Shown here: positions 1,269 through 57,944 of the stretch, in pieces | How positions within the stretch are numbered: position 1 is the first letter of the stretch | How the letters are laid out: each line of letters begins with the position of its first letter | Origin: Candidatus Saccharimonadota bacterium | GTDB lineage: Bacteria > Patescibacteriota > Saccharimonadia > Saccharimonadales > Saccharimonadaceae | Reading direction: 5' to 3' | Assembly: GCA_017432025.1 (NCBI GenBank) | Contig: JAFRJX010000008.1 | Location: 1-64,000, forward strand | DNA: 64,000 nt | Translations under genes and position numbers: made by a program | The notes under the pieces: model-generated | What the model saw: only the letters and a program-made list of their open reading frames with translations | Told to the model about the DNA's origin: nothing | Databases searched by the model: none

Positions 1269-2384
1269 ATGAAAATTTTAGGAATTGAGACTAGTTGTGA
1301 TGAAACTGCGGCTGCCGTCGTGGAAAACGGAAGCAAAATTTTGTCGAATGTAGTGGTTTCGCAAATTGATATTTTTGCGGAATACGGGGGCGTGATTCCA
1401 GAGGTAGCGGCGAGATCACACCTTGAAGCGATGATGCCGGTGGTAAATAAGGCATTAAAAGATGCTTCGTGCTCTTGGGACGAGATTGACGCGATTGCGG
1501 TGACGCATGCGCCGGGGCTACTAGGCTCCCTTCTCATTGGGACGTTAACGGCGAGAACGATGGCGGTGCTACATGAGAAGCCGCTGTATGCGACGCATCA
1601 TTTGAAATCACATGTGTATGCAAACTGGCTCCAAAGGCCAAAAGATATAGAATCAGAGTTAGCGCTCCGGGGCGCTAGCCCAAGTCTTACTAACTCTGAT
1701 TCTACATCTTTTGTCCCGCAGTTTCCTTTGCTTGCCATGGTAATCTCTGGGGGACATACGCAGATTTTGTACATGCGGGGACATGATCAGTTTGAAATTA
1801 TTGGAACCACACACGATGATGCGGTTGGGGAGTGCTTTGACAAGGTGGCGAAGATTCTGGGTTTACCGTATCCGGGTGGACCATCGATTGCAAAAGAGGC
1901 GCTGAGGGGCGATGAAAACAGATACAAATTACCACACCCGCATGTTGAGGGCTTGGATTTTTCATTTTCTGGGTTAAAAACCGCAGTTTTAAGAGCCGTA
2001 CAAAAGGAACTTGGACTGCCAATTTCACACCCTAGCCACGATCTCAAGAATCATTTAACTGATGGGATGCGGGCGGATTTTGCGGCGAGTTTCCAAAAGA
2101 CGGCGATTGATATTTTGAATGAAAAAATCAAGATGGCTTTGCAGGAGCATCCAGAAATAAAGTCGATTGTGTTCGCGGGTGGCGTTTCGGCAAATCAGAA
2201 GCTACGCGAAGAGGCTAAGAAAGTTTTTGATAAGGAATATACGGTTTATTTCCCGGAGCCAAAATTCTCTGGCGACAATGGCGCAATGGTGGCTGCGGCG
2301 GCATTTTATGAGATACAGGCGGGCGTGAAACCAACCGACCCATACAAGCTCAACATCTATCCGAGAATATCTGTCGAATCATAG
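1269..2384 (+). CDS. tsaD: tRNA N6-threonylcarbamoyladenosine transferase TsaD
   Basis: TsaD transfers the threonylcarbamoyl group to A37 of ANN-reading tRNAs, working with TsaB and TsaE (not in this window). The 371-residue protein starts with the ASKHA signature LGIETSCDETAAAVV. It keeps the metal-binding histidines H111 and H115 (HLKSH) and the nucleotide-binding VISGGHTQ strand, and later FAGGVSANQ and a C-terminal GDNGAMVAAAA segment. An unusual insert covers about residues 123-150. Its DNA (1640-1712) is an inverted repeat with 23-bp arms, so an extra peptide of about 20 residues lies between two conserved blocks that are nearly adjacent in other bacteria. The reading frame is intact. 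Confidence 0.96.
   Translation: MKILGIETSCDETAAAVVENGSKILSNVVVSQIDIFAEYGGVIPEVAARSHLEAMMPVVNKALKDASCSWDEIDAIAVTHAPGLLGSLLIGTLTARTMAVLHEKPLYATHHLKSHVYANWLQRPKDIESELALRGASPSLTNSDSTSFVPQFPLLAMVISGGHTQILYMRGHDQFEIIGTTHDDAVGECFDKVAKILGLPYPGGPSIAKEALRGDENRYKLPHPHVEGLDFSFSGLKTAVLRAVQKELGLPISHPSHDLKNHLTDGMRADFAASFQKTAIDILNEKIKMALQEHPEIKSIVFAGGVSANQKLREEAKKVFDKEYTVYFPEPKFSGDNGAMVAAAAFYEIQAGVKPTDPYKLNIYPRISVES
1640..1712. repeat. In-frame palindromic insert in tsaD
   Basis: Arms 1640-1662 and 1690-1712 are inverted copies of each other with one mismatch in 23 positions. The 27-nt loop holds a smaller stem, TAGCGC with GCGCTA. The insert keeps the tsaD frame and encodes a polar Ser-rich peptide absent from typical TsaD. 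No typical coding constraint explains such long symmetry. Confidence 0.85.
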
Positions 2385-6146: not shown

Positions 6147-7379
6147 TTAATGGCGGATTTTCTTGGCAAGAGTGTAGGTTTTGCTAAGAGATAGTTCAAA
6201 GGAACCGATGAGTTCGACGACGTGGCCGCCGAAGCCTTTTTTGAATTCGTAAATGCCGTAGTCTTTGGAGTTTTCATCTGGAAGGCCGTTGATGCCATAG
6301 AAGTTGTAGATTTTGAAGTGGTTCGCGGCGGCGAACTTCAGCATGTGGTATTGGATCAAATATTGGGCGTTATAGTCACGCATGTATTTTTCGTCGGAAC
6401 CGGAGAAGAGATAGACGACCTCATCGCCGTAGGTCATGAACATGGCAGCAGAGAGAACCGTCCTGTCGCCGGAATTGTCCTCTTCGGACACGCTCGAGGC
6501 CGCTACTTCGTACGCCTCTGGCGAACGGCCAAGCTTATGGTCCTCAGAGGACCCTTCCGGCTCCTCGCTCCGTTCGCTCCCGTTGCCTGGAATGGTCTCG
6601 AAACTACCATTCTCGACCTTATCCTCCGAAAGCCCTCGCTCCATACCGACTTCGGAAACCACGGCTTCGGCGACCATGAATTTAACTTCGCCGCGGGCGT
6701 GGAAGAGGTCGTACATGGTTTCGTAGTAGCTTAATGGTTTATCGGTAAAGTGGCGGCGTTCAGAGGTGGATTCGGTGATTTTCTTGAATTTATCAAGTTC
6801 GTCTCGGCTGAGTTCCCTGATAGTGACGCCCATTTTTTCAGCTTTCCTAATATGGTTTCTGGTGTTTCGCTTAAAGCTCTCCATTAGTTCGGTTTCTGTT
6901 CGGTTTTCTATAGGGGTGACGAACAGATATTTCGGTTGGGAGGCGTTTTTCATCTCTTTAAAACCCTGCTTTTCGAGATTTTCGAGGGCTTTTTTATGGT
7001 TAAAGCCGCCTTCGACCGGCAGACCGTCGCGGTCGCGTTCAATCAGTTCATAATACGGGTCGATATGAAGTAGATAGCCGTTTTTCGATTTGATGTATGA
7101 TTTAAGATTATCAAAGAAGAAATCAACGAGTTTAGTGTTTTCGAGATCCATCAGTGGGCCACCTGGAGCATAGAAATAGAGCTTCTTCATGAAAGCCGGC
7201 TTCGAGACGAGCATCGAGGCTCCGAGAATCTCATCATCCTTTTTGACGGCGACATAGTGCGCAGTCCAGCCAGATTTACCTCTGAGCTCGGCAATTTCTG
7301 GGGTTTGCATGAAAGATTTATATGGACTTTGATTAGCAAAGGCGCGAAAATCTTCGGCGCTGATTTCTTCGAATTTCAT
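6147..7379 (-). CDS. FemAB/MurM-type aminoacyltransferase with palindromic insert
   Basis: FemAB-family enzymes add amino acids from aminoacyl-tRNA to the peptidoglycan stem peptide. The 410-residue product has the double GNAT-like fold, seen in WTAHYVAVKKDDEILGASMLV, FKRNTRNHIRKAEKMGV and, near the end, NFYGINGLPDENSKDYGIYEFKKGFGG (the last spread over about residues 370-396). About 65 extra acidic and Ser-rich residues (around 235-305) split the C-terminal GNAT domain; their DNA holds a palindromic element also found in valS. The start is the ATG at 7379 with its promoter; an in-frame ATG upstream is less likely. It sits 22 nt downstream of a second FemAB-like gene. Confidence 0.9.
   Translation of the reverse strand: MKFEEISAEDFRAFANQSPYKSFMQTPEIAELRGKSGWTAHYVAVKKDDEILGASMLVSKPAFMKKLYFYAPGGPLMDLENTKLVDFFFDNLKSYIKSKNGYLLHIDPYYELIERDRDGLPVEGGFNHKKALENLEKQGFKEMKNASQPKYLFVTPIENRTETELMESFKRNTRNHIRKAEKMGVTIRELSRDELDKFKKITESTSERRHFTDKPLSYYETMYDLFHARGEVKFMVAEAVVSEVGMERGLSEDKVENGSFETIPGNGSERSEEPEGSSEDHKLGRSPEAYEVAASSVSEEDNSGDRTVLSAAMFMTYGDEVVYLFSGSDEKYMRDYNAQYLIQYHMLKFAAANHFKIYNFYGINGLPDENSKDYGIYEFKKGFGGHVVELIGSFELSLSKTYTLAKKIRH
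6478..6553. repeat. Palindromic element inside the FemAB-like gene
   Basis: The plus strand reads CCTCTTCGGACACGCTCGAG, GGCCG, a 23-nt loop, then CGGCCAAGCTTATGG and TCCTCAGAGG. Outer CCTCT/AGAGG, middle GGAC/GTCC and inner GGCCG/CGGCC arms can pair. The valS element at 9943-9991 has the same ends with a 2-nt loop. On the coding strand both give SEDHKLGR and ASSVSEE. A smaller inverted repeat (GAATGGT/ACCATTC) lies nearby at about 6590-6612. Confidence 0.85.
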
Positions 7380-7385
7380 AATTTC

Positions 7386-7391
7386 ATTATA
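7386..7391 (-). promoter_or_regulatory. Leaderless -10 box
   Basis: TATAAT on the minus strand, 6 nt before the ATG at 7379, in the 22-nt gap between the two FemAB-like genes. Confidence 0.65.
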
Positions 7392-7401
7392 GCACAAGTG
7401 A

Positions 7402-8322
7402 TTAGCCAAGGTGGCGACGGACTTTGCGGAGAGTTTTATAGAGATTATATTTGGCTAGCTTCAAAACAATATCGTAGGTACCGGCATAGTCCACTTCGTA
7501 ACCGGCGAAGGTTTTCTTGAAATTGGTAAAGCCGGCCCACGGGTGGTTTTTCGGGGCGCCTTCAGGGGCAATTCCCCAGAAATCGAAGACTGTTTTGCCG
7601 TCTTTATAAGCGTCGAGGATCAGCTGAATGGTGAGGATACCGGTGGCATGGAGGCCACGGCCGGTGTCGGTTTGGGCGCCTTGGAGATTATATCTGGTGT
7701 CGTCGTAGTCAAAAACGAGACCAGCGGCAACGATTTCCTCTTTATTTGTCTCTGGATTCGTGTATTTGACAATGTAAAGAGTTGCGAAATCCTGCTTTAA
7801 TTCGGTGGCGAGATAGTGCTCGGAAAAGGTCTTGATTCCCTTCTCTTTAGCGAGAGCTTTTTGGAGATCTAACAGATAGTGAATGTCGCCAGGATCTTTA
7901 CTAGTTTCGATTTTTAGGCCATTTTTCTCATGATTCTTGTAATAACGAAGGAGACGCGATGGGAGGCGGGCTTTCAACTCGTCTTCGTTCCCTGTTAAAT
8001 CGAGTTTCCAGGTTTCTTTTGGACAGAGGTCGGTAGATTTCTTGGTGTTCTTTGGTTTAATCTTTATAAATTCGAGATTTTGCGGCTCGACACGGATAAA
8101 AATCAGATCTTTGTCGAGATTTTGTAATGAATTAATGGCGGATTTCAGACCGGATTTAGTCTCAGCGACCGGTCCATAAGGGAGGTATAGGTATTTCCCT
8201 ACTGGCGTAGTCTTTTCAATAGCTAAATAAGTAAAGTCATCTTGAGCCTCGTAATGTACGGTTTCTCCCAGATCATTCTGAAGATTCAACCATTCTCTAC
8301 TCTGCGTAATTGGTAATTTCAT
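7402..8322 (-). CDS. FemAB-family aminoacyltransferase
   Basis: This is a second, 306-residue member of the FemAB fold. Signs are SRLLRYYKNHEKNGLKIETS in the substrate-binding part, DIHYLLDLQKALAKEKGI, and the C-terminal FDFWGIAPEGAPKNHPWAGF followed by TNFKKTFAGYEV, which is the usual end of the second GNAT subdomain. It probably builds the interpeptide bridge of peptidoglycan together with the gene just downstream; which residue each adds cannot be read from sequence. It lacks the long insert seen in its neighbour. The ATG at 8322 has a -10 box 7 nt upstream. Confidence 0.9.
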   Translation of the reverse strand: MKLPITQSREWLNLQNDLGETVHYEAQDDFTYLAIEKTTPVGKYLYLPYGPVAETKSGLKSAINSLQNLDKDLIFIRVEPQNLEFIKIKPKNTKKSTDLCPKETWKLDLTGNEDELKARLPSRLLRYYKNHEKNGLKIETSKDPGDIHYLLDLQKALAKEKGIKTFSEHYLATELKQDFATLYIVKYTNPETNKEEIVAAGLVFDYDDTRYNLQGAQTDTGRGLHATGILTIQLILDAYKDGKTVFDFWGIAPEGAPKNHPWAGFTNFKKTFAGYEVDYAGTYDIVLKLAKYNLYKTLRKVRRHLG

Positions 8323-8329
8323 AATTCCG

Positions 8330-8335
8330 ATTATA
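8330..8335 (-). promoter_or_regulatory. Leaderless -10 box
   Basis: TATAAT on the minus strand, 7 nt before the ATG at 8322. Confidence 0.65.
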
Positions 8336-8362
8336 GCACAATCTTAAATGACGTGAATTTAA

Positions 8363-8548
8363 TTGACACATCATTCCCTTTATGTTTAAACATGCAGAAA
8401 TTCCGGCTTGATGTCCCAAAGTCGGTCAATTTCTCCCAACTGAACCCCACTCTCTTCAGTTGTTACTTCGATTTTAGCGGAAGCTTTTTCGTTTGTCAAG
8501 TCGGGATGCTAGCCGTATGGGTTGCTAGACATAAGGGAATTAGTGTGA
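8363..8548 (+). ncRNA. Candidate structured RNA or MITE-like palindrome
   Basis: No convincing gene fills 8323-8656, but a nested fold does. P1 pairs 8367-8385 with 8529-8547 (core ATTCCCTTTATGT with ACATAAGGGAAT). P2 pairs CCGGCTTGA (8403-8411) with TCAAGTCGG (8496-8504). P3 is CAACTGAA (8437-8444) with TTCAGTTG (8455-8462). P4 is CTAGC (8509-8513) with GCTAG (8524-8528). Together they form a compact multi-helix junction. I do not match it to RNase P, tmRNA, SRP or another known RNA. Strand is a guess; a small MITE is the alternative. Confidence 0.45.
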
Positions 8549-8644
8549 AAATTCTTATGATTTTTGTGCAAAAGGTTATGGATTTCGTGTGCAAAAATCT
8601 TGGCCTCGTGCGCGGACTGCAAAAGAGATTCTTTTAAGATGTGG

Positions 8645-8650
8645 TAAAAT
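8645..8650 (+). promoter_or_regulatory. Leaderless -10-like box
   Basis: TAAAAT, 6 nt before the ATG at 8657. Confidence 0.55.
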
Positions 8651-8656
8651 GTAGGT

Positions 8657-8869
8657 ATGGCATTTATCCGTAAATTCAAAACGACTTCCGGCGCAACCGG
8701 AGTGCAGGTATGCTACAAAGAACAGGGAAGGGTGGTCCGAACGGAGCACATTGGCTCGGCATCAACTGAGTCCGGTGTGGAAAAGCTGGTGATAAAGGCC
8801 CAGGCGCTGATCGATGAAGGGAAGAATCCGCTGTTTAATCTGGATAAATACAATAAGAAGAAAGGTTAG
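8657..8869 (+). CDS. Small protein resembling the N-terminus of an IS1634-type transposase
   Basis: The 70-residue product contains FIRKFKTTSGATGVQVCYKE and EHIGSASTESGVEKLVIKAQ. This pattern resembles the first 60 or so residues of IS1634-type transposases of Actinobacteria (FIR.....SGA.AVQ..., VEHVGSA.T..EL). The DDE catalytic domain that should follow is absent; the frame stops at 8869 and a different short gene begins 1 nt later. It could be a remnant of a host-derived insertion sequence or a small protein kept for another role, such as DNA binding. It has its own promoter and an intact frame, which favours expression. The family match is from memory of the motif. Confidence 0.6.
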   Translation: MAFIRKFKTTSGATGVQVCYKEQGRVVRTEHIGSASTESGVEKLVIKAQALIDEGKNPLFNLDKYNKKKG

Positions 8870-8870
8870 T

Positions 8871-9119
8871 ATGAAGATAAAGAAAGAGGTGGCGATTGGA
8901 ATTGCGATTGGTGCGATTGCAGCAGCCTGCTCGATTGCTAGCACAATTATTGCGGTGAATAACAGACCGCAAGAAGGGGATAATGGTGGATCGGGTGACA
9001 CAAGTGTGGAAAACTCTGATGATTCTTGTGGAGAGGGAACTTACAAGTCTTGTGGTGTGACGGCGAATGGGGAAGAGGTCTGCAGTTGCATCGAGGATCC
9101 AAGCAAAAAATCGGAATAA
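8871..9119 (+). CDS. Small anchored Cys-rich protein, unknown
   Basis: This 82-residue protein begins with a basic stretch and one hydrophobic segment (IGIAIGAIAAACSIASTIIAV), followed by an Asp/Gly/Ser-rich outer part with CSC and three more cysteines. The cysteine in the hydrophobic segment is not in a canonical lipobox, so a simple membrane anchor is more likely than a lipoprotein. The ATG at 8871 follows the stop of the upstream gene by 1 nt, with AAAGG just before it, so the two are translationally coupled. A longer frame starting at 8814 overlaps the upstream gene and is rejected. No function can be proposed. Confidence 0.65.
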   Translation: MKIKKEVAIGIAIGAIAAACSIASTIIAVNNRPQEGDNGGSGDTSVENSDDSCGEGTYKSCGVTANGEEVCSCIEDPSKKSE

Positions 9120-9120
9120 A

Positions 9121-9152
9121 AAAATCACCCCGGGTGACCGGGGGATTTTTTT
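9121..9152. terminator. Bidirectional terminator
   Basis: AATCACCCCGG, loop GTGA, CCGGGGGATT, with A-rich left and T-rich right flanks. It lies between the convergent 8871 gene and valS. Confidence 0.8.
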
Positions 9153-11832
9153 AGATGAGTTCTAATTCTTGTTTCATCCTCTTAATGAGGTTTTCTTTTT
9201 CGAAGATTAACTCTTTGGTTTCTTTCACGAGATGTTCTGGAGCGCGCTCGACGTAGCTTGGGTTTGCCATGCGGGCGTTCAAGGCATCAAGTTCGCGACC
9301 GACATTAAGAATCTTCTCAGTAAGGGCGGCTTTGTACTCTTTAATTACTTTCTCTGGAACGTCGAGGTAGAGCTCGTGGTTTGCCAGAGGTACACGGAGA
9401 CCTTTTGGCTGGCCATTATTCGAGTTAATCGTCGGAACCTTGGTGAGAGTGCGGATTAAGTTTGCATTATCCTCTACAAGTGAGTCTTCGCCGTACAACA
9501 GGCCATATTTTTTGGCGTTATTAGTGCCTGGAAGGGCCTGTAAGGTGGCTCTAACCTCCGACACGATAGTTCTTATGTTTTCAAACTGCTCGGCCGTTAT
9601 AGCGTCAAATTTAAAGTCGTTTGGCCAGTCCTGGATGATAATAAAGTCATCGGTCCAGCTGAGATTTTGCCAAATCGCCTCTGTTACGAATGGCGCAAAT
9701 GGATGAAGGGCGATGAGAATGGCTTCGAGAGTTTTCTTAAGTAATGGGATGTTCTTGTAAATTTTTTGGCTCTCGATAAACCAGTCGGCGTACTTGTCCC
9801 AGATAGTCTGATAGAGAGTCTCGACGGCTTCGGCGAAGCGGTAATTCTTCATGTCTTCGGCGACGTCGTTTAGGCAGGTGGTGAGCTCACGACAGATCCA
9901 GTCCTCACCCATGTGGTCCGTCGTATAATCGGCGTAATCGCTCTCTTCGGACACACTCGAGGCCGTTCGGCCGAGCTTATGGTCCTCAGAGGTCGGTTCT
10001 ATCTCCTCCTCATCAACCATAGATTGAATCAAGCGGGAGATATTCCAGAGTTTGTTGCAGAGGTTGCGGCCGGCGATGACCGAGTTTTCAGAGAAGGCTT
10101 GGTTCATGCCTGCGGAACGACCTCGGAGAATTCCAAGACGGAAGGCGTCGGAGCCATACTTAGCCACGAGATCCATTGGGTTAATCACGTTACCCTTGGA
10201 TTTGCTCATCTTCTTGCCATGAGCATCGAGAACGAGACCGTGGAGATAGACTTCTTTAAACGGTACTTCACCGGTGACATAGACGCCCATCATAATCATA
10301 CGGGCAACCCAGGCGAAGAGAATATCGGCGCCGGTTTCCATTACATCGAGCGGATAATACGGGTTGAACACACCTTCGGTCCAGTTCGTACAAACAATTG
10401 GCCAGTGGGCGCTAGAGAACCAGGTATCAAAGGTATCTTCGTCGCGGACATATTTGACGCCAGCACGCTCAATCTCTTTAAGATTCACACGGCGGTCGAA
10501 AATCCACTCTGGAGCGGCGGTCGCCTCGAGCGTCACTTTCTTAAACATCGGAATAGCAATACCCCAAGGAATCTGGCGGGAAATATTCCAGTCTTTGAGA
10601 TTCTCGAGGTAATTAATCAAAATGCGTTGCTTGCTCTCTGGGTAAAACTTGATTTCGCCGGCTTCGAGATGCTTAATCGCTTCGGCGGCGAGCTTTTTCA
10701 CATCGATAAACCATTGTTCCTTAAGGGTAGGCTCAATCGTCGTGCCACATTTGTAGCAGTGAGAAACAGAATGGACGATGCTTTTTTCACCACGGAGAAG
10801 GCCAGCTTCTTTTAGATCTTTCAGGACTTTTTTGCGGCATTCAGCGGTAGTGAGACCATCATAGGCTTCAGGAACGTTAATCATGGTGCCATTCTCGGCA
10901 ATCACCTGGATGCGCTCGAGATTGTGGCGGTTGCCGACTTCAAAGTCGTCGAAGTCGTGAGCTGGGGTAATTTTCACAGCACCGGTGCCGTATTCCATGT
11001 CGGCGTGTTCATCGGTAATAACCGGAATTTCGCGGTCGGTAAGAGGTAGGTGAACAGTTTTACCAACTAAATCTTTGTAACGCTTGTCTTCTGGGTTGAC
11101 GGCGACAGCAGTATCGCCAAAGAGCGTCTCTGGACGAGTAGTTGAAACGACGATTTCGCCACCATCATAGGTGTAGGCGATATCCCAGAGGGAACCCTTT
11201 TCGTCTTCGTGCTCGACTTCGATGTCGGCGAAGGCGGTTTGGTGCTTCGGACAGAAGTTCACGAGCTTTTCACCTCGGTAAATCAAGCCATCATTCCACA
11301 TTTTTTCAAAGGTGGTATAGACGCGGTCAACGACGTTTTCATCAAGGGTAAAAGTAAGATCGCCCCATGCACAGGAGGCGCCGAGAGCACGAACTTGGAG
11401 CTCCATGTTGCCACGCTGTTCGGCAACGAAGTTCCAGACGCGCGAGTAGAGTTCGTCACGATCAAATTCAAAGCGAGTATGACCTTCTTTCTCGAGGGCG
11501 CGTTCGTAAACGACCCAGGTTTCGAAACCGGCATGGTCAGCGCCAGGGATATACCAAGCACTCTGGCCTTTGAGACGGTGGAAACGGATGAGGGAATCCT
11601 CGAGGGCGATGGTCAAACCATGGCCGATGTGAAGATTGCCGTTGGCGTTTGGTGGTGGCATAACGATAGAGTAAACGTCGTCCTTATTGACCACTTTACG
11701 ATCATCTTCACCGTTGCCGTCGTTGTCGACGGGAAGGGTGGTGATGGTTGGTTGGAAAACGCCGGCAGCCTCCCACGCTGCATAAATGTCTGATTCAAAG
11801 TCCCCCGGTTCGTAACTACTCGCAAATTTCAT
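9151..11832 (-). CDS. valS: Valyl-tRNA synthetase with palindromic insert
   Basis: ValRS charges tRNA-Val and edits threonine. The 893-residue protein has the class I signature NANGNLHIGHGL near residue 55, the CP1 editing domain (TTRPETLFGDTAVAVNP), and KMSKSKGNV near residue 545. An anticodon-binding domain and a C-terminal coiled coil (LTEKILNVGRELDALNARM) follow. An insert of about 17 residues (around 613-630, SEDHKLGRTASSVSEE) lies in the link between the catalytic core and the anticodon-binding domain; its DNA is a palindromic element shared with the FemAB-like gene. The start is the ATG at 11832 with its -10 box, not one further upstream. Confidence 0.97.
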   Translation of the reverse strand: MKFASSYEPGDFESDIYAAWEAAGVFQPTITTLPVDNDGNGEDDRKVVNKDDVYSIVMPPPNANGNLHIGHGLTIALEDSLIRFHRLKGQSAWYIPGADHAGFETWVVYERALEKEGHTRFEFDRDELYSRVWNFVAEQRGNMELQVRALGASCAWGDLTFTLDENVVDRVYTTFEKMWNDGLIYRGEKLVNFCPKHQTAFADIEVEHEDEKGSLWDIAYTYDGGEIVVSTTRPETLFGDTAVAVNPEDKRYKDLVGKTVHLPLTDREIPVITDEHADMEYGTGAVKITPAHDFDDFEVGNRHNLERIQVIAENGTMINVPEAYDGLTTAECRKKVLKDLKEAGLLRGEKSIVHSVSHCYKCGTTIEPTLKEQWFIDVKKLAAEAIKHLEAGEIKFYPESKQRILINYLENLKDWNISRQIPWGIAIPMFKKVTLEATAAPEWIFDRRVNLKEIERAGVKYVRDEDTFDTWFSSAHWPIVCTNWTEGVFNPYYPLDVMETGADILFAWVARMIMMGVYVTGEVPFKEVYLHGLVLDAHGKKMSKSKGNVINPMDLVAKYGSDAFRLGILRGRSAGMNQAFSENSVIAGRNLCNKLWNISRLIQSMVDEEEIEPTSEDHKLGRTASSVSEESDYADYTTDHMGEDWICRELTTCLNDVAEDMKNYRFAEAVETLYQTIWDKYADWFIESQKIYKNIPLLKKTLEAILIALHPFAPFVTEAIWQNLSWTDDFIIIQDWPNDFKFDAITAEQFENIRTIVSEVRATLQALPGTNNAKKYGLLYGEDSLVEDNANLIRTLTKVPTINSNNGQPKGLRVPLANHELYLDVPEKVIKEYKAALTEKILNVGRELDALNARMANPSYVERAPEHLVKETKELIFEKENLIKRMKQELELI
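9943..9991. repeat. Palindromic element inside valS
   Basis: The plus strand starts CTCTTCGGACACACTCGAGG and continues CCGTTCGGCCGAGCTTATGG and TCCTCAGAG. CTCT/AGAG, GGAC/GTCC and GGCCG/CGGCC can pair, with a TC/TC mismatch between the first two stems, as in the intergenic hairpins at 13907, 17443 and 57768. The insert keeps the valS frame. Confidence 0.85.
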
Positions 11833-11838
11833 AAATTT

Positions 11839-11844
11839 ATCATA
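11839..11844 (-). promoter_or_regulatory. Leaderless -10 box of valS
   Basis: TATGAT on the minus strand, 6 nt before the ATG at 11832. Confidence 0.6.
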
Positions 11845-11981
11845 GCATAATTTATCAGATAATAAAAGAATAGGCGAAATCATATTTACAGATGTAAGTA
11901 TTGACTTATTCAGTAATCTGTGCTATAATAATAAAATGGCTTTGGCCAAAACTTATCATTTTGTCTTGGGAGGAAGTAAAA

Positions 11982-13882: not shown

Positions 13883-13906
13883 AGTCGCCTCTGTTATCAA
13901 GAGATA

Positions 13907-13970
13907 AGAACAATTACGCTACTCTTCGGAGACGATTCGGAAAGTCTCCTCAGAGTTAGCGTAATTGTTC
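13907..13970. repeat. Intergenic palindromic element, copy A
   Basis: GAACAATTACGCTA pairs with TAGCGTAATTGTTC. Inside are CTCT/AGAG, a TC/TC internal loop, then GGAGAC/GTCTCC and the loop GATTCGGAAA. The full stem is about 26 bp with small bulges. It lies between the promoter of the 13163 gene and tRNA-Arg and has no coding role that I can see. Confidence 0.9.
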
Positions 13971-14033
13971 TCCTCGTTGGTCGTAAAAGCTCCTCAGAGT
14001 TAGCGTAATTGTTCTCCTCGTTGGTCGTAAAAG
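13946..14033. repeat. Two tandem 44-bp units (right arm of copy A duplicated)
   Basis: Positions 13946-13989 and 13990-14033 are two identical 44-bp copies. Each contains the right arm of the palindrome (TCCTCAGAGTTAGCG...) followed by TCCTCGTTGGTCGTAAAAG. The unit resembles the 43-bp unit at 57790-57905. Confidence 0.9.
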
Positions 14034-17425: not shown

Positions 17426-17442
17426 TTTTTAATAATGAATAA

Positions 17443-17504
17443 AAATAACACTAACTCTTCGGAGACGGTTCGGAAAGTCTCCTCATAGTTAGTGTTATTT
17501 TTCT
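17443..17504. repeat. Intergenic palindromic element, copy B
   Basis: AAAAATAACACTAACT is inverted as AGTTAGTGTTATTTTT. Inside are a TC/TC-type internal loop, GGAGAC/GTCTCC and the loop GGTTCGGAAA. It lies between two convergent Mur-like genes and overlaps the end of the second, so it may also act as a terminator. The core matches copy A while the outer arms differ. Confidence 0.9.
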
Positions 17505-18748
17505 TTTGAGAGCTTCTTCAGGTATTTTTTCGCGACCTTGATGTCTTCGAAGTCGTGAGGACCGTCGGCGCGAAGGATGGTTTTTTCGTGGCCTTTGCCA
17601 AGAATTAAGACGATATCATCTTTTTTCGCGGTATTAATCGCGAGTTCGATAGCTTTTTCGCGGTCAAGTTCTTTAATGAGGTCCTTACCAAGGGTTTTCT
17701 TGGCTTTTTCAGCACCTTTAATAAAGCCTTCGGCAATCTTTTCGGGATCTTCGTCGCGAGAGTCATCTTCGGTGATAATCACAAAATCGGCATATTTACC
17801 AAGAATCATGCCTCTAATTGGTCGGGTGGATGGATCACGACGACCAGCACCACCATGGACGGCAATAATCTTGCCTTTATGACCTTTGACAGATTCAAAT
17901 ACTTTTTCGAGCGCATCTGGAGCATGAGCGTAGTCCACAATTACAGTGAATGGTTGACCTTCGTCGATTACATTCATACGGCCTTCAACGGATTCGAGTG
18001 ACTTAATACCTTCTTCAATCTGAGATTTTTTGAGACCGAGTTTTTCGCCAACGATGGCGGCTGCAAGGGAATTGTAGACATTAAATTCGCCAGGAATCTT
18101 GGTCTCTATTTTCATATCACCACACGAATATTTGACGCCAGTACTACTCAATTTAATGTTTTCTGCCTTTTTATCGCCATAATTTATACCATATGTGATA
18201 TATTTCTTCGTATGCATTGTGTAGAACTTAGTGGCGGCATCGTCGGCATTAAAGATTGAGAATTTGGCCTTCTTAAAGAGTTTACCTTTGGCATCACGGT
18301 ATTTAATGAAAGTGCGATGATAATCGAGATGATCGTGAGTGAGATTCGTAAAGACGGCAATTTCAACCGGGATGCCGAGAGTGCGGTGCTCGGCGAGAGC
18401 ATGGGAAGTGATTTCGAGAACGAGGTATTCGGCACCCTGCTTCTTGATCTCAGAAATGCGCTTGTTCAGGGTAAAGGCATCAACTGTAGTCATATGGCCT
18501 AGCTCTGGAGTAAGTTTATCGACACCCCAAGCAACAGTGGTCATGATGCCAGTTTTGTAGCCGGCTTTTTTAAGCATGTTCCAGATCATGAAACAGGTGG
18601 TAGTTTTACCGTTAGTACCAGTGACACCAATTACATGAAGTTTACGAGCTGGGCGACCATAACGAGTCGTAGCAACCACGGATTGCGCAAAATGATATGG
18701 TAGGACAGCGGTGTTGTAGAATGGTAATTTCTCGAGTTGTTTTTTCAT
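17495..18748 (-). CDS. murE: MurE-like UDP-N-acetylmuramyl-peptide ligase, short form
   Basis: MurE adds the third amino acid of the peptidoglycan stem peptide. The 417-residue protein has the ATP site IGVTGTNGKTTTCFM near residue 40, TNLTHDHLDYHRTF, EITSHAL, the GRMNVI junction and the C-terminal VDYAHAPDALEKV. In the position of the DNPR motif, which marks meso-diaminopimelate specificity, it has EDDSRDEDP. The Arg is kept but the rest is not, so the amino acid is uncertain. The N-terminal domain that binds UDP-MurNAc is almost missing. It is the last gene of an operon with a MacB-type transporter; its ATG follows the permease stop by 1 nt. Confidence 0.85.
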   Translation of the reverse strand: MKKQLEKLPFYNTAVLPYHFAQSVVATTRYGRPARKLHVIGVTGTNGKTTTCFMIWNMLKKAGYKTGIMTTVAWGVDKLTPELGHMTTVDAFTLNKRISEIKKQGAEYLVLEITSHALAEHRTLGIPVEIAVFTNLTHDHLDYHRTFIKYRDAKGKLFKKAKFSIFNADDAATKFYTMHTKKYITYGINYGDKKAENIKLSSTGVKYSCGDMKIETKIPGEFNVYNSLAAAIVGEKLGLKKSQIEEGIKSLESVEGRMNVIDEGQPFTVIVDYAHAPDALEKVFESVKGHKGKIIAVHGGAGRRDPSTRPIRGMILGKYADFVIITEDDSRDEDPEKIAEGFIKGAEKAKKTLGKDLIKELDREKAIELAINTAKKDDIVLILGKGHEKTILRADGPHDFEDIKVAKKYLKKLSKEK

Positions 18749-57746: not shown

Positions 57747-57765
57747 AGCTTTTCTAGATAATAAT

Positions 57766-57819
57766 AACACTAGTTTTTCGAAGACAGTTCGGAAAGTCTT
57801 CTCAAAACTAGTGTTATTT
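57766..57819. repeat. Intergenic palindromic element, copy C
   Basis: AATAACACTAGTTTT is inverted as AAAACTAGTGTTATT. Between them are the TC/TC internal loop and GAAGAC/GTCTTC around AGTTCGGAAA. Compared with copies A and B both stem strands changed together (GGAGAC to GAAGAC, GTCTCC to GTCTTC). Confidence 0.9.
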
Positions 57820-57905
57820 TTATCTTGGAAGTCGGAAAGTGTCCTCGGAACTAGTGTTATTTTTATCTTGGAAGTCGGAAAGTCTTCTCAAAACTAGTGT
57901 TATTT
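57790..57905. repeat. 43-bp tandem units (right arm of copy C repeated)
   Basis: The word CGGAAAGT recurs at 57790, 57833 and 57876, a fixed 43-bp period. Each unit holds the right arm (TCTTCTCAAAACTAGTG or a diverged form) plus TTATTTTTATCTTGGAAGTC. The middle unit has GTCCTCGGAACTAGTG. The units touch, without spacers, so this is not a CRISPR array. Confidence 0.9.
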
Positions 57906-57944
57906 TTATTCTAATGCATACTTGTCGAAGATTGGTATATGTGG

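Follow-up and report, generated by a model that had tools for sequence, protein, structure and literature searches.

A putatively mobile hairpin element inserted in frame in proteins of Saccharibacteria and also present in Bifidobacterium

Introduction

How do two unrelated proteins of one genome come to carry the same palindromic insert in frame? The question is raised by a 64,000-nt stretch of DNA (the window) on contig 6 of a Candidatus Saccharimonadota genome of 858,689 bp in 8 contigs, in which a short hairpin lies within a FemAB-like gene and within valS, encoding valyl-tRNA synthetase (ValRS). The initial annotation of the window likened the insert to Rickettsia palindromic elements (RPE; Ogata et al. 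2000, 2002, summarised in PMC10969869). We propose, with a probability of roughly 0.7, that it is a mobile, non-autonomous palindromic DNA element with a conserved 35-nt tip on an approximately 26-bp stem, 87 nt (29 codons) in all. The two genes and their copies are as follows.

6147–7409, minus strand: FemAB-family gene holding copy 1 in frame (Pfam PF02388, E 1.1e-95)
6470–6559, minus strand: hairpin copy in the FemAB-like gene, encoding SEDHKLGR..ASSVSEE in frame
9151–11883, minus strand: valS (910 aa), holding copy 2 in frame
9943–9991, minus strand: hairpin copy in valS, encoding SEDHKLGRTASSVSEE

Results

The initial annotation had reported that the two genes share the same sequence parts and that both proteins gain SEDHKLGR and ASSVSEE. 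We found CTCTTCGGACACNCTCGAGGCCG exactly twice in the window (6480–6502 and 9943–9965), as was CGGCCNAGCTTATGGTCCTCAGAG (6526–6549 and 9968–9991); neither was matched in 100 dinucleotide-preserving shuffles, confirming the shared parts. SEDHKLGR...ASSVSEE is the minus-strand, in-frame translation of both copies, in the FemAB-family protein and in ValRS, in agreement with the annotation. The FemAB copy has outer arms CGGAA/TTCCG and TCCTCT/AGAGGA, a TC/TC internal loop and a tip at 6486–6543, the apical loop of which is longer by 21 bases; it lies in a region that aligns poorly to solved FemA-like structures. The valS copy has the 35-nt tip at 9950–9984, TTC/TCA shoulders and short arms, and lies between the catalytic domain match (ending at residue 586) and the anticodon-binding domain match (starting at 661).

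The dispersed hairpin consists of the conserved 35-nt tip, GACACACTCAAGGCCGTTCGGCCAAGCTTAYGGTC (GAC..GTC), and a self-complementary stem. Automatic anchoring succeeded for 43 copies, in 42 of which the core, GGAC-ACACTCAAGGCC-GTTC-GGCCAAGCTTAYG-GTCC, was 37 nt long. In most Saccharibacteria copies, a TC/TC internal loop flanked the core, with outer arms beyond it that differed from copy to copy and were self-complementary within each copy; arm self-complementarity exceeded the 99th percentile of mismatched-copy arms in 44 of 46 copies from this and same-genus genomes. Bifidobacterium copies were 87 nt long, mostly with a 26-bp stem, and their 35-nt tip, GACACACTCAAGGCCGTTCGGCCAAGCYTACGGTC, agreed at 98% with the consensus. 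Their stem boundary was sharp, with pairing in 27/38 copies at position 26 and in 7/38 at position 27, and their outer ends were weakly conserved (CC|G ... C|TC). A variant tip, GACCGTAAAGACTTGGCCAGAGCGGCC.., occurred in Saccharibacteria and Bifidobacterium alike. By inspection, a few copies had arms in common (L049, L051 and L052 in genome G030; L006 and L007 in G000), indicating that arms can travel together with the tip. The three G030 copies, with the same outer arms GGTGATA..TTTTGCGGAC, are a sign of recent spread, arms included. No family among the Rfam 15 covariance models was matched by the element.

Searching via the tip, we recovered 102 distinct copies in Saccharibacteria. The genome studied here has six copies, in valS, femAB, gyrA and a TIGR01177-like methyltransferase gene and, beyond the window, in two intergenic hairpins at C1:29694 and C4:19883. 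Matches with E below 0.001 were present in 16 of 35 other genomes of the genus, with at most 6 matches per genome; copy number in the genus thus ranged from 0 to 6, and seven genomes at least 96% complete had no match. In the genomes of 24 further families of the order, no match was convincing.

More than half of the Saccharibacteria copies (58/102) ran in frame through an open reading frame (ORF) of at least 150 aa. The tip is open in 4/6 frames; all four stop-free phases were used (25, 18, 11 and 4 copies), and the two stop-containing phases by 0/58 ORF copies. In-gene copies occurred in both orientations. Host proteins, named by their best hidden Markov model match (a few of these matches fall below the curated cut-off), were GyrA, TsaD, LigA, QueA, ArgS, GatB, ribosomal protein S17, AlaS, an RlmD-like methyltransferase, PyrG, TypA, TatD, PcrA, TlyA, PrmC, IleS and LeuS, in addition to ValRS and FemAB. 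The insert is therefore not peculiar to one protein family, as in-frame copies occur in FemAB, ValRS and seventeen other families.

Nor is the insert ancestral in all orthologues. At this site the loop is short in most ValRS proteins of the genus, including about ten besides that of the close relative G020; the latter, 89% identical, has VDESDAEYPEDYTT where the window has VDEEEIEPTSEDHKLGRTASSVSEESDYADYTT, so that the valS copy is a net insertion of about 57 nt. In several other same-genus ValRS proteins, this loop is occupied by long hairpins of other kinds, and tsaD, ligA, queA, pcrA/uvrD, tlyA and ileS show a like pattern. Empty orthologous sites were found for valS, tsaD, ligA, queA, pcrA/uvrD, tlyA, ileS and the methyltransferase gene, and by inspection the net insertions in tsaD, ligA, queA, pcrA/uvrD, tlyA and ileS were about 25–30 residues, fitting a unit of 87–90 nt. 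Between the ligA genes of G018 and G010, the outer arms were nearly the same and the tips were different. In the methyltransferase gene of G009 (L184), arms CTTGAAAAAA..TTTTTTTCAAG occur without the tip where G000 has the full element; this palindrome is either a pre-insertion hairpin or a remnant. That the arms generally arise by inverted duplication of the target flank was a reading we rejected: ligA was suggestive, as G003 has the right-flank sequence without a hairpin, but queA was contrary, as both arms are new.

We then scanned 84,980 species genomes with a degenerate tip pattern of about 20.5 specified bases, for which we estimated about 0.2 chance matches. Among at least 117 stretches obtained, all 80 listed came from Candidatus Saccharibacteria, Bifidobacterium or a Bifidobacteriaceae metagenome-assembled genome. 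None of these 80 came from Rickettsia, a comparison that concerns the tip only and involved no RPE sequences. Twelve Bifidobacterium genomes had 2–25 copies each, and no copy occurred in 197 further genomes sampled evenly from the class. The copies in Bifidobacterium were mostly intergenic, between neighbouring genes that were co-directional in 49 cases, convergent in 22 and divergent in 4 by a rough gene call; by inspection, one B. santillanense copy was in frame, in the linker between two ABC ATPase domains. Oppositely oriented pairs about 130–270 bp apart (L394, L399, L410, L442 and L445) resembled REPIN-like doublets. The insertion of copies within Saccharibacterial genes rules out simple bin contamination. 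The common tip suggests that a mobile element has been exchanged between the two groups, and because cultured Saccharibacteria are naturally competent epibionts growing on Actinobacteria (PMC10633639), a route for exchange with bifidobacterial DNA is available. In the literature searched, we found no description of such elements in Saccharibacteria or Bifidobacterium, nor of the tip sequence. Carriage by phages or plasmids was rejected, as neither IMG/VR nor PLSDB contained a copy and the single 'phage' match, MT837054.1, looks chromosomal. This sequence (L383), deposited as a bacteriophage, resembles a piece of Bifidobacteriaceae chromosome with TrxB-like, MurJ-like and protein-kinase-like ORFs, and its hairpin sits just outside the TrxB-like ORF.

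The stem behaved differently from the tip. Across 30 aligned Bifidobacterium copies, 96.3% of stem cells paired and 317 cells were changed on both sides, giving a covariation score of 0.817 versus 0.078–0.124 for slid structures. RNA families usually retain many G-U pairs; here, G-U occupied 11/870 stem cells. Sense-strand mismatches in Saccharibacteria comprised 28 G-U and 29 A-C, and for this lack of a G-U excess we rejected RNA-level selection on pairing there; those in Bifidobacterium comprised 37 G-U and 57 A-C (p 0.049). In two Bifidobacterium orthologue pairs (L287/L313 and L292/L391), the flanks were 89–96% identical and the arms 62% and 37%, all self-complementary; both partners had changed in 9 and 13 pairs, and the tips were identical at 34/35 and 35/35 positions. 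The tips in ligA of four Saccharibacteria differed at 1–3 of 37 positions, with the gene 71–73% identical. These comparisons indicate that the stem changes in concert while the tip is held. Stems that differ yet remain self-complementary, with few G-U pairs and a nearly constant tip, suggest that arm copying at the DNA level, probably by template switching, shapes the stems rather than RNA selection.

The other hairpins of the window are listed below.

1636–1716, plus strand: hairpin within tsaD, in frame, with another tip and 27-nt arms of 93% complementarity
13906–13975, plus strand: intergenic hairpin with TTCGG/CCTCA shoulders and a different tip (GACGATTCGGAAAGTC), alike in shape only
17438–17505, plus strand: intergenic hairpin, same second tip type as 13906–13975
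57751–57830, plus strand: intergenic hairpin, second tip type, with two duplications of its 3' half spaced at 43 bp

The initial annotation had matched the ends of the two inserts to those of the intergenic hairpins and proposed one mobile family in genes and gaps. The TTCGG/CCTCA shoulders are indeed common to the three window hairpins (at 13922, 17454 and 57770) and the FemAB/valS family, but their tip differs; the family does enter gaps, at the two intergenic positions beyond the window given above, but the intergenic hairpins of the window are not members. These hairpins (13906–14030, 17438–17505 and 57751–57918) have the tip GACNNTTCGGAAAGTC, and in two of the three the 3' half is tandemly duplicated (43/44 bp). 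Many relatives have palindromes of other kinds in the YANWL..FPLLAL loop of TsaD; the one in G010 is of the 35-nt-tip family. A second, larger family of in-frame palindromes, with the branched tip CCYGTNNMGACRGGSGCGA, reaches up to 11 copies per Saccharibacteria genome and was absent from the 12 Bifidobacterium genomes; members include L059, L060, L061, L066, L098 and L115 (valS and tsaD loops) and G000:C3:65734.

Discussion

If the hairpin is a mobile element, several steps would account for its distribution. In coding regions, the copies seen would be surviving insertions that kept the frame in loops or linkers able to tolerate them; a length divisible by three and the stop-free frames of the tip would have favoured such survival. 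The DNA may extrude a hairpin or cruciform, and template switching during replication may copy one arm onto the other; the stem sequence would then drift quickly yet stay mirrored. The tip would be retained through recognition by a trans-acting enzyme other than a Y1/RAYT transposase, and the element would pass between Saccharibacteria and bifidobacterial hosts, for example via Saccharibacterial natural competence. A bolder version can be offered tentatively: the hairpin may move between an epibiont and its host phylum with the tip as its sole heritable sequence, and may diversify the loops of core proteins; its stem would be rewritten again and again by DNA template switching, always as a mirrored pair, or be formed new at each insertion.

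Several points weigh against this account. The arms in ligA change at no higher rate than the gene itself, so that fast arm turnover is clear in Bifidobacterium only; even there, the close pairs (callitrichos, rousetti) mostly retain their arms, and some 'orthologous' copies may be independent insertions at one site. As copies were recovered through the tip, those with decayed tips were missed and tip conservation is partly ascertainment; the orthologous pairs nevertheless argue for a real constraint on the tip. The taxonomic range is limited by the tip-pattern scan, for which 80 of at least 117 stretches were listed. No mobilising enzyme, parent transposon or target-site duplication was identified, the enzyme search covering Y1 only.

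An alternative that we consider unlikely is a functional host-cell hairpin (an RNA, a protein-binding site in DNA or a 3'-end element), its tip selected for recognition and its stem for pairing, with in-gene copies as by-products. The constrained tip at orthologous loci, the very strong stem covariation and the scarcity of Bifidobacterium copies in divergent promoter regions (4, versus 22 convergent, by the rough call) would fit it, and the slight excess of A-C over G-T mismatches in Bifidobacterium would fit an RNA of the opposite strand. However, G-U cells are very rare and in Saccharibacteria are matched by A-C, copy number varies down to zero in nearly complete genomes of the genus, copies occur within coding genes in both orientations, and no Rfam family matches. 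The hairpins might also mark DNA for recognition when epibiont and host exchange it, as their confinement to Saccharibacteria and the Bifidobacterium lineage among the matches listed and the competence of cultured Saccharibacteria on Actinobacteria would allow. Known uptake sequences are about 10–12 nt long and occur in hundreds of copies, whereas here 0–25 copies were found, with none in some same-genus genomes, making such a signal improbable. Still less probable is a translational bypassing element skipped by ribosomes, as in Magnusiomyces mitochondria: the hairpin does lie within coding sequence, but the ORF copies occupy stop-free phases only, a restriction that would be needless if the insert were skipped. 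Chance or convergent low-complexity loops in the FemAB-like protein and ValRS, both of whose inserts lie in variable, acidic loops, are already refuted by the identity at the DNA level, the absence of shuffle matches and the occurrence of the tip in two phyla and four reading phases.

The proposed mobile element can be compared with known systems. The likeness to RPE drawn in the initial annotation describes the behaviour well, as an analogy. As far as RPE are summarised in PMC10969869, both are short dispersed palindromes with several families per genome, lie in frame in many unrelated genes including housekeeping genes, also have intergenic copies and leave empty sites in orthologues of relatives. 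Set against that summary, the present element belongs to another phylum, probably differs in sequence, measures about 87 nt instead of about 150 bp, and has a conserved tip on a copy-specific stem, four reading phases and two phyla. Repetitive extragenic palindromes (REP) and REPIN, with their REP-associated tyrosine transposases (RAYT; PMC3116915), are also short dispersed hairpins at gene ends, sometimes in opposed pairs as in Bifidobacterium, but our element inserts within genes and conserves the tip, not the stem. A RAYT origin was rejected because the Y1 (TnpA_REP) transposase PF01797 was found in 0/15 genomes, five of them without the element, with 5/14 control genomes positive. Miniature inverted-repeat transposable elements (ERIC, BOX, Correia-type) are likewise small, non-autonomous, palindromic and sometimes coding; the present element has a variable stem, with outer ends conserved only weakly and no clearly conserved terminal inverted repeats, and no target duplication was resolved. 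Double-hairpin elements of fungal mitochondria also invade compact genomes, and we know of no in-frame series across housekeeping genes for these or for sponge mitochondrial hairpins. The repetitive hairpin elements of sponge mitochondria (PMC2800124) are similarly invading hairpins in compact genomes, in a different system. Homogenisation of the arms of inverted repeats by template switching is known (PMC8604942, PMC7202029), a mutational process that matches arms without RNA selection, as proposed here. The published examples are static repeats of yeast and E. coli, whereas the present element would be mobile.

What is new is the setting in Patescibacteria, the presence of the element in Bifidobacterium as well, and a tip that stays constant on a stem both mirrored and variable. 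Protein-coding palindromes have so far been regarded as a speciality of Rickettsia; the present ones lie in Patescibacterial proteins that include aminoacyl-tRNA synthetases, DNA ligase, gyrase and ribosomal protein S17. The mirrored, fast-changing stems are natural material for testing template-switch arm copying in bacteria. At the level of DNA, the sharing with Bifidobacterium is a sign that Saccharibacteria and a genus of candidate hosts exchange material, and such a sign could help to identify the hosts of uncultured gut Saccharibacteria.

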